Source: Clostridia bacterium
GTDB lineage: Bacteria; Bacillota; Limnochordia; DTU080; RSA5
Length of the DNA: 37,160 nt
Direction: 5' to 3'
Assembly: GCA_002919235.1 (NCBI GenBank)
Contig: PKEX01000025.1
Coordinates: forward strand, 1-37,160
The notes below the pieces were generated by a model. That model worked only from the letters and a program-made list of their open reading frames with translations. It did no database searches and was not told where the DNA came from. A program made the translations under genes and the position numbers. Shown in pieces: positions 11,487 through 13,856 of this stretch. How positions within the stretch are numbered: the first letter of the stretch is position 1; each line of letters begins with the position of its first letter.

Positions 11487-12134
11487 ATGGAGATCGAAGC
11501 GCTGGCCAACAAGCTGGCCGCGGCCTTGGCAAGAGAGCTTTCCCTCTCGGAAGACGATCGCGACATCGCCGCATACGCGCTCCACGGAATCTTCTCCGTC
11601 TCGTTTTACCTGTCGACGCTTCTCATCTCCGCCTGGTTGCTCGGCCAATGGAAATACACGCTCATCGTCGCCGGCACCGTCGCCGTGCTGCGGACGTTCA
11701 TGGGCGGGGCCCACGCGAGCACGGCGTGGCGCTGCGGCCTCATCGGCGCCGCCATGATGAACGGGGGCGGCGCGCTGGCACGGGTGCTGGAGGCCGCCGT
11801 CTCCTGGGAACACCCCGGGCTGCCTCAAGCCGCCGCGGCCGCGTCGGCGCTGGCAGCGCTGGCGGCCATCGCCGCCTACTGTCCAGCCGACGTGCCGCAA
11901 AAGCCCATCACCGATCCCCGGCAGCGCCGCTGGCTGCGGTGGATCAGTGCGGCACTGGTGGCAGGCGCCTGGCTGCCCCTCACCCTGGCGGCGGCGCAAA
12001 GAGGGTGGGAGACCGTCTACTTCAGCGCCCAAGCGGGGCTCTGGATTCAACTCCTTTTGGTGACGCCGGTCGGGTTTGGGTGGAGCGGACGAGTCGATGC
12101 GTACCTCACTAAACTACTGCGAAAGGAGGAGTGA
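11487..12134 (+). CDS. agrB: AgrB-like membrane endopeptidase
   Basis: AgrB proteins are polytopic cysteine proteases that cut the C-terminal part off the AgrD precursor and form the thiolactone ring of the signal peptide. This 215-residue protein has the catalytic pair His76 and Cys83 in FMGGAHASTAWRC. The seven-residue spacing is the same as His77/Cys84 of Staphylococcus aureus AgrB. The preceding R-T-F-M-G-G-A-H context is also typical. About five hydrophobic segments follow a soluble N-terminal helix. The ATG follows GGGGGG. The stop lies six bases before the AgrD-like gene, and the last codons of agrB supply its ribosome site (GGAGG), so the two are likely coupled. Confidence 0.93.
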   Translation: MEIEALANKLAAALARELSLSEDDRDIAAYALHGIFSVSFYLSTLLISAWLLGQWKYTLIVAGTVAVLRTFMGGAHASTAWRCGLIGAAMMNGGGALARVLEAAVSWEHPGLPQAAAAASALAALAAIAAYCPADVPQKPITDPRQRRWLRWISAALVAGAWLPLTLAAAQRGWETVYFSAQAGLWIQLLLVTPVGFGWSGRVDAYLTKLLRKEE

Positions 12135-12140
12135 ATTGCG

Positions 12141-12263
12141 ATGAAACGAATTATTCTCTCGGCCATCATGGCGCTTCTCGGTGCGCTTGCCATGGCGAAC
12201 GTCGCTTCGGCCTGCTGGCTCGGGTACCACCAGCCGGAGCTGCCCAAGGCGCTGCGCAAGTAA
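12141..12263 (+). CDS. agrD: AgrD-like cyclic lactone autoinducer peptide precursor, 40 residues
   Basis: The ATG follows AAAGGAGGAGTGAATTGCG; translation gives 40 residues. Residues 1-24 are a hydrophobic/amphipathic leader starting MKRIILSAIM. The rest reads ACWLGYHQPELPKALRK. Aligned to S. aureus AgrD (CDFIMDEVEVPKEL), Cys25 and Pro35 have exactly the same separation (ten residues), and LPKAL matches VPKEL. By analogy AgrB would cut after Tyr29, leaving a five-membered ring C-W-L-G-Y closed by a thiolactone. The N-terminal end of the mature peptide cannot be fixed from sequence. The charged tail after the cut is shorter than in S. aureus. The call is supported by its position directly behind agrB. 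The exact signal structure is inference. Confidence 0.9.
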   Translation: MKRIILSAIMALLGALAMANVASACWLGYHQPELPKALRK

Positions 12264-12355
12264 AGCCTGAGGGCACCCTCGAACTTTCCACCCAAACCAC
12301 CGGGCCAGAAAGCCTTCGGCCGACCGGCGTCGCCGAAAGGAGTTGAATCGCGTCC

Positions 12356-12856
12356 GTGGAGGCCCTAACCACCCTCTTTCTCCATCATATCCCTGAAGCC
12401 TGCTTTTTTGCCCTTGCCGGTCTCGGCCTGGTCGGTTTCAAGACAGCGGCCCGCCAGTGGTTTCCCTTCGTATTGGCGTTTGGCATCGTGGTTCACGTGG
12501 CGCGACTCCAGTTCTTCCCCTGGCACGTCCCCGTGCTGGCCGCCCTGCAGGCGGTGGCGCAGCGCTATTATTTCCGGATTTCGTGGGTGACCAGCATCGG
12601 CGCCGTATTCGTCAGCCTGATCCTCCTCAATCTGGGCGAGGCGATGATCGCCCTCGCGGTCTTCCCGATCCTATCTCTTTCGGCACAGCAAGTGCTTCAC
12701 GACCCCGGCCTCTATGTCGCCATCGGGTGGGGGACCCAGATCCCGCTTGTGGTCGCGACGCTGGGAGTGTACCGCTGGGGCTGGGTGATTCTTCCCCTTC
12801 ATGGCGACGGCGGCGGAGCAGGGGTGGAGCGTTCCGCAACCGGAGAGAAAAGGTGA
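12356..12856 (+). CDS. Polytopic membrane protein of the agr-like locus (possible separate sensor domain)
   Basis: The protein has 166 residues and is mostly hydrophobic: likely membrane segments near 13-29, 35-50, 54-67, 77-103 and 117-140, then a short polar tail. I recognise no named family. AgrC receptors have an N-terminal domain of six or seven membrane helices followed by a kinase. Here the next gene encodes a kinase with only two helices. This protein may therefore supply the missing peptide-sensing membrane domain; that is inference. The GTG start is the first possible codon after an in-frame stop; GGAG lies 13 bases upstream, a long spacing. It ends six bases before the kinase gene, so the two are cotranscribed. 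Confidence 0.7.
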   Translation: MEALTTLFLHHIPEACFFALAGLGLVGFKTAARQWFPFVLAFGIVVHVARLQFFPWHVPVLAALQAVAQRYYFRISWVTSIGAVFVSLILLNLGEAMIALAVFPILSLSAQQVLHDPGLYVAIGWGTQIPLVVATLGVYRWGWVILPLHGDGGGAGVERSATGEKR

Positions 12857-12862
12857 GCCGAC

Positions 12863-13816
12863 TTGAGCAAGATCCCCATGGGCGGCCCGGAGCAGCAGGA
12901 GCAGCTGCTCCGCCGCCACGAAGATGCTCGATCCGCAGCAGAGCGCAAGGCGGAGTGGGCGTTCGCCGCCGCGATCATCCTCCTCGGCCTCACCACGCTC
13001 CTTTTCACCAGCATCAATCTCCGGTACTTCCTGGATGAACGGCCCCGGACCTCCAGCGAGGCGCAGCTGTCGTTAGTCTTGATGGCCATCGCCATCCTCA
13101 TCGCCATCGGCGTGGTGGTGGTCACGTCCTACGTGGTGCGGCTGATGAAGGCGGAGGCCCGGATCCGCCTGGAGATGGAGCGCCTGCAGAGCAAGGCCGA
13201 GCTGGCTGATTCCTTGCGGGAGCTGCGGCACGACTACGACAACCAGCTGACGGTGATCCTGGCCCTGCTCCAGCTGGGGCGAGTGGAGCGGGCCGTCGAC
13301 TACCTGCAGGGGATCGTGGGGCGCAGGCCCCACCTGATGGACGCTGAAGCCTCTTCCGCCGTCTTCGCCTTCTTGGGCGAGAAGGGCCTGGAGGCCGTCG
13401 AAAACCGGGTGGCCGTCCGGTATGAGCTCGAGCCCTGTCCCTTCCCCGAGGTTCCGGTGGACGTCATCACCCGGATCGTCGGCAACTTGTTCGACAACGC
13501 CGTCGAGGCGGCGGTGCAGGCGGAGGAAAGGGGCGAGGTCCGGGCCCGGGTCTTCGTGCGGGACGGCCGCTGGTGGTTTGAGATCTGGAACAACGGCGCC
13601 TCGATTCCCCCCGGAATGCTCCAGCGGATTTTCGAATCCGGCGTCACCACCAAGCGCGAGGCCGAAGGGCACGGGCTGGGCCTTGTCGTGGTACGCCGCC
13701 TCGTAGACACCCACCAAGGGCAGATCACCGTAGAGAGCCACCCCGAGCGCGGCACCACGTTCACCGTCTCGTTCGAGCTGGCGCCGGTCTATTCCAGCAG
13801 CTCTCACGACCGGTAA
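12863..13816 (+). CDS. GHKL sensor histidine kinase, AgrC/SpoOB-like
   Basis: The protein has 317 residues with two membrane segments at about 32-52 and 69-92. The H-box LRHDYDNQLTVI follows with His123, the phosphoacceptor context of the AgrC/CitS-type (SpoOB-like) kinases. The N-box is GNLFDNAVEAA at 207-217 and the G-box GHGLGLVVVRRL at 269-280. The loop between the membrane segments is short, so no sizeable extracellular sensor exists. The TTG start has AGGTGA at good spacing, using the end of the previous gene. No response regulator gene follows: the next gene is a protease with its own promoter. The partner must be encoded elsewhere. It probably reads the AgrD-derived peptide, together with the upstream membrane protein. 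Confidence 0.88.
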   Translation: MSKIPMGGPEQQEQLLRRHEDARSAAERKAEWAFAAAIILLGLTTLLFTSINLRYFLDERPRTSSEAQLSLVLMAIAILIAIGVVVVTSYVVRLMKAEARIRLEMERLQSKAELADSLRELRHDYDNQLTVILALLQLGRVERAVDYLQGIVGRRPHLMDAEASSAVFAFLGEKGLEAVENRVAVRYELEPCPFPEVPVDVITRIVGNLFDNAVEAAVQAEERGEVRARVFVRDGRWWFEIWNNGASIPPGMLQRIFESGVTTKREAEGHGLGLVVVRRLVDTHQGQITVESHPERGTTFTVSFELAPVYSSSSHDR

Positions 13817-13828
13817 TCATCGTCACTT

Positions 13829-13856
13829 TTGCCATGCCGCACCCGCATGGTACAAT
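13829..13856 (+). promoter_or_regulatory. Sigma-A-type promoter of the M48 protease gene
   Basis: TTGCCA (13829-13834) and TACAAT (13851-13856) are separated by 16 bases, between the kinase stop and the protease start. It makes the protease gene separable from the agr-like operon. Confidence 0.65.

Follow-up and report, generated by a model that had tools for sequence, protein, structure and literature searches.

The window, by which we mean the whole 37,160-nucleotide stretch of Clostridia bacterium DNA that was analysed (contig PKEX01000025.1), contains an agr locus of four genes, all on the forward strand. These encode AgrB, AgrD, a membrane protein (M) and a histidine kinase (K), and the last two are separated by a gap of exactly 6 bases (Table 1). 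The original prediction had placed the end of the upstream protein six bases before the kinase, which agrees with the open reading frames (12856 and 12863).

As established for its family, AgrB converts AgrD into a cyclic peptide and exports it. The family-invariant R, GG, H, C and P residues, including the catalytic histidine and cysteine, are all present in the aligned AgrB of the window. AgrD matches TIGR04223 and possesses the amphipathic leader, the cysteine ring and a tail with a P-x-x-P motif (QPELPKAL). The ring is likely to be CWLGY, since HQPELPKAL lines up with the segment known to follow the ring in AgrD proteins; rings of five residues have been described in clostridia (PMC8748961, PMC5322536). 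A promoter-like site lies past K, so that the next gene, encoding an M48 peptidase, is probably a separate unit.

Table 1. Features of the agr locus, in coordinates of the window
Feature	Position	Strand	Description
agrB	11487–12134	+	Pfam AgrB PF04647, E 2.5e-27; membrane peptidase processing and exporting the signal peptide
agrD	12141–12263	+	40-residue precursor of the cyclic autoinducing peptide; NCBIfam TIGR04223 quorum_AgrD, E 2.5e-10
Likely peptide ring, Cys-Trp-Leu-Gly-Tyr	12213–12227	+	AgrD residues 25–29; putative
Ribosome-binding site of the M gene, AAAGGAG	12336–12342	+	Read from the sequence
M, five-helix membrane protein	12356–12856	+	166 residues; GTG start, TGA stop at 12854–12856
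Ribosome-binding site of the K gene, AAGGTGA	12850–12856	+	Overlaps the last codons of M; read from the sequence
K, two-helix histidine kinase	12863–13816	+	317 residues; TTG start; Pfam
K membrane segment 1	12959–13015	+	Residues 33–51, hydropathy; counterpart of AgrC TM6 by the layout of the fused-AgrC alignment
K membrane segment 2	13067–13123	+	Residues 69–87, hydropathy; counterpart of AgrC TM7
Phospho-acceptor His123 codon (RHDYDNQL)	13229–13231	+	Predicted; histidine invariant in the kinase alignment
Promoter-like site after K, TTGCCA-16-TACAAT	13829–13856	+	Consensus scan, 10/12 matches

The membrane protein M and the kinase K

M is predicted to form five helices, composed of residues 2–25, 32–52, 57–73, 77–106 and 117–141 (AlphaFold pLDDT 86, pTM 0.78), with the N terminus outside and the C terminus inside according to the charge pattern. 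The original description of M as almost wholly hydrophobic is accurate for the five-helix part and fails for the polar C-terminal tail of approximately 25 residues that follows helix five. No match to the M of the window was found above the cut-off in Pfam or NCBIfam, and none in Pfam for its Moorella relative. In the alignment of the family, an arginine (R50) is invariant and a G-x-H motif (H57) nearly so, both located at the first outside hairpin; a P-E in helix 1 (E14) and a glutamate in helix 4 (E95) are also conserved. The M of the window deviates from this pattern, with F-P-W-H instead of F-G-x-H.

Searching with the M of the window alone detected matches in 19 of 299 genomes of the phylum; inspection of the neighbourhoods placed nearly all of them next to agrB, and most next to a two-helix kinase as well. 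A scan of genome contigs gave no match with the M of the window as the only query and 39 loci with an alignment of M proteins. M thus belongs to a real and large family of conserved open frames beside agrB across the phylum, and is not a chance reading frame. Fold similarity of the M model to PDB entries is middling (best Z-score of 5.5, with rhodopsins partly aligned), and the closest BFVD models are two phage proteins of approximately 160 residues (TM 0.62, E 0.07). BFVD also holds a 429-residue virus protein named 'Accessory gene regulator B' (A0A8S5R960) whose resemblance to the M model is partial (prob 0.57, TM 0.45) and which, judged by its length, is more likely an AgrC. No relatives of M were found in viral contigs, and no phage records carrying the AgrB of Romboutsia. 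The sequences in the AgrB alignments varied too much to serve in a pattern scan.

K comprises SPOB_a and histidine kinase ATPase domains (Pfam: HATPase_c 9e-26, SPOB_a 4e-11, HATPase_c_5 3e-10). Its N terminus is a charged region of approximately 30 residues, and the AF2 model contains helices at residues 9–59 and 65–137, the second membrane segment continuing into the dimerisation helix (65–137). Hydropathy confirms the predicted architecture of only two membrane segments (33–51 and 69–87) around a short external loop, which is poorly conserved in the alignment. The helix count of the pair also comes out as foreseen: five in M and two in K give seven, about the number in AgrC.

Two proteins that resemble one AgrC and lie six bases apart could in principle be an ordinary one-piece gene disrupted by a frameshift or by faulty assembly. 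The probability of such an artefact is practically nil: K has its own start, its own ribosome-binding site and the charged N-terminal region, and the split arrangement recurs in 30-odd other, independent genomes of many families, which refutes the explanation. Among these are the isolate Moorella sulfitireducens, Desulfosporosinus sp. I2 and Desulfotomaculum sp.; the sister genome (G299) is split as well, with M overlapping K.

One-piece relatives and the linkage of M to K

The arrangement of M and K was surveyed in 60 agrB loci of the phylum, which were picked by AgrB score and without regard to M. Fourteen loci carry the split M–K pair, eight carry a fused form and six carry one-piece kinases with 6–7 transmembrane helices (TM) and no clear similarity to M (weak in one of them, L118). 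In the remainder, M lies near agrB but is not directly followed by a short kinase (29 loci), or no M was found (3 loci, in one of which, L080, the kinase is broken across frames).

The original prediction had proposed a search for fused versions in relatives, and these exist at 8 of the 60 agrB loci (L081, L084, L085, L095, L100, L105, L110 and L122), where the M domain makes up residues ~1–155 of nine one-piece kinase reading frames. The fused kinases, encoded beside agrB, are 441–471 residues long with 6–7 TM by hydropathy; the second copy at L095 (L095:1-1048) ends at the contig edge and is 349 residues long. Their layout is that of AgrC: five helices, a linker on the inside, two further helices with a short outside loop between them, then SPOB_a and the HATPase domain (from the alignment, and for L110 from Pfam). 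A profile built from 20 stand-alone M proteins recovers all nine frames along almost its entire length (E 9e-30 to 7e-16), and hhalign of 70 stand-alone M proteins with the fused N termini gives 99.9% (E 4e-35). The AgrB control gives only 0.4%, and M as an AgrB paralogue was rejected on this result. By sequence comparison, then, M and the N-terminal membrane domain found in one-piece kinases at agr loci are homologues. For the most divergent 7-TM AgrC proteins at these loci, comparison of M with the few sensor-domain sequences shows a weak, collinear similarity that does not reach significance. The PDB contains no solved AgrC membrane domain.

M and K are also tightly linked. Every short two-helix kinase of the 60-locus set has M directly upstream (14/14), whereas no locus with a one-piece 6–7-TM kinase has a separate M (0/14; Fisher p 5e-8, a nominal value as the loci are related to one another). 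A kinase retained with agrBD after the loss of M, the case that had been named as contrary to the original prediction, was not found among these loci. Across all sets there are 38 adjacent M–K pairs, most with gaps of −60 to +30 bases and many with small overlaps; in three of them (L023, L173 and L174) the kinase is not of the short type, and is HisKA where tested (L023 and L174). Starting from K in 12 genomes, chosen as their first agr locus had M without a short kinase, six short two-helix kinases were detected elsewhere in the genome, five of them with M directly upstream. L211 is an orphan short kinase with neither agrB nor M within 1.5 kb. At L048 (6433–7598), K is kept and M is gone, with agrB cut short and agrD missing; either the agr locus has decayed or the assembly is broken here.

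When M and K sequences are joined for tree building, fused forms fall within the split ones, with at least three changes on well-supported branches; split L098, for example, is the sister of fused L105 with 98% support. The two forms have therefore been interconverted at least three times, and each change may have been a fusion or a fission, depending on where the tree is rooted. That one pair of proteins has been joined or separated more than once, with the order kept, argues strongly that the two function together.

The tree bears on the possibility that M is an accessory of AgrB and AgrD, acting in maturation, export or self-protection, and stands beside K through operon structure only. Such a role would suit the 29 of 60 loci where M is near agrB without a short kinase, as well as the distance-matrix (mirror-tree) correlations, in which M follows AgrB (rho 0.54) more closely than K (0.45). 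The correlations are both positive and not specific to M and K; the closer one with AgrB fits a shared ligand history and does not single out M–K contact. We nevertheless consider a purely accessory M unlikely, given its covalent fusion to the kinase at no fewer than three places on the tree, with no M–AgrB fusion seen, its presence beside every short two-helix kinase of the unbiased agrB set, and the existence of two-helix M–K pairs with no agrB within 1.5 kb (L203 and L212).

A probable two-part receptor and its possible output

The homology of M to the fused N termini, the linkage and the complementary helix counts together identify M with AgrC TM1–5, and K with TM6–7 and the kinase. M and K thus very probably (probability approximately 0.85) form one AgrC-type receptor whose halves come from separate, closely adjacent genes, in support of the original proposal of a sensor split into a helix-only protein and a two-helix kinase. 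Given the charge pattern, with the N terminus of M outside and its C terminus inside, the break between M and K would fall in the cytoplasmic loop before TM6, so the topology need not change. The pair shows the sequence features of AgrC, except for being a single protein and for AgrA, and would therefore represent a split variant of AgrC rather than a new kind of receptor.

In the mechanism that we propose, the peptide would be detected at the outer face of M. M would pack on both membrane helices of dimeric K and may thereby pass the signal on to its SPOB_a helices and ATPase domain. K would then autophosphorylate on His123, as its conserved motifs indicate.

The similarity to Staphylococcus aureus AgrC and Clostridium perfringens VirS comprises a multi-helix membrane sensor in an agrBD locus, last two helices with a short outside loop, as in K, and a catalytic part of the SPOB_a/HATPase_c_5 type. 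Unlike in those systems, the sensor helices 1–5 and the kinase are separate proteins here, and the genome of the window lacks a LytTR regulator (AgrA/VirR). The one-piece clostridial relatives (L081 and others) share the same M domain, two helices, kinase type and agrB neighbour, in one gene instead of two. A further parallel is TM5-6C of S. aureus AgrC, a man-made truncation of two helices and the kinase that still inserts and autophosphorylates although the remainder of the sensor is missing (PMC3841183). It is cut at the place equivalent to the M/K break; its missing half, however, was not supplied as a separate protein.

That truncation, active in liposomes with a reported approximately two-fold response to peptide (PMC3841183), also raises the possibility that K senses alone through its two helices, with M as a modulator rather than the main receptor. 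We regard this as very unlikely: K has a short, poorly conserved outside loop, the invariant R50 and H57 sit at the outside hairpin of M, and the fused form has the normal AgrC layout.

No LytTR regulator (PF04397) was detected in the genome of the window, which is 99.45% complete, while control genomes do match. There is thus no AgrA, and the phosphate from the split receptor would pass to another response regulator. The genome encodes 14 response regulators, two of which have Spo0A-type DNA-binding domains (C36:11146 and C3:69004). The target of K could, speculatively, be Spo0A or another of the 14; as agr systems have been linked to sporulation in clostridia (PMC10602386), Spo0A might be guessed by analogy.

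M beside other kinases and its possible wider role

The loci with M near agrB and no K (29/60) indicate that K is not the sole partner with which M is used. In 8 of these 29 the stretch contains a different kinase, which is of the HisKA type in all four that were scanned (L103, L114, L115 and L117); L137 is HisKA too. In three pairs M directly abuts or overlaps a kinase of another type, by 3 bases at L023 and by 10 at L173 and L174. HisKA-type kinases beside or overlapping M at agr loci are found at L023:5245-6738, L174:5781-7316, L030, L103, L114, L115 and L117, and further at L137, L163, L175, L180 and L181. Several contain PAS domains, and their class differs from that of the SPOB_a kinase of the window.

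Elsewhere M stands directly beside agrB without a short kinase, often as a tandem pair (L033–L035, L082, L088, L089, L094, L096, L099, L107, L109, L120, L132, L134, L138 and others), with the order M–M–agrB at L094, L096 and L172. Romboutsia and Terrisporobacter, which we take to belong to the same family as C. difficile, have M directly before agrB. The receptor of the C. difficile agr1 system has been stated to be unknown (PMC10602386). In C. perfringens, the uncharacterised genes CPE1563 and CPE1562 lie directly upstream of agrB and are co-transcribed with it; the study did not settle whether they act as a two-component system (PMC2706048). Their gene order matches M–M–agrB, and both are putative members of the M family.

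Several M loci stand apart from these. Between intact M genes of Desulforamulus aeronauticus, two M fragments of 40 and 59 residues (L174:3369-3829) are apparently a decayed copy. A 27-kb sequence labelled as a Klebsiella pneumoniae plasmid (L195, NZ_CP061968.1) carries an M gene and agrB of clostridial sequence type, and is probably a contaminant or misassigned contig. M genes in metagenome-assembled genomes labelled Ilyobacter polytropus and Deltaproteobacteria (L179 and L184) reflect either transfer outside Bacillota or a binning error.

The variety of partners suggests that M may be a receptor subunit able to serve several kinases. More tentatively, and with about one chance in three of being right, M may be a portable peptide-receptor subunit, as the missing LytTR regulator and the 29 loci without a short kinase would allow. 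It would then be the agr receptor where there is no AgrC gene, pairing with short SPOB_a kinases or with PAS/HisKA kinases of the sporulation type, and would connect a single peptide signal to several phosphorelays, that of Spo0A among them.

No description of a split AgrC or of the M family was found in the open literature, to which the search was confined, subscription papers and preprints not being covered. Many clostridial agr loci have been described as having no receptor, and the M family provides a candidate receptor subunit beside agrB. It allows receptor loci to be found by sequence, though no curated family model recognises M. As a natural AgrC in two parts, the split form lets peptide binding be studied apart from kinase control. 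In organisms without AgrA, M suggests how the peptide signal might reach regulators such as Spo0A.
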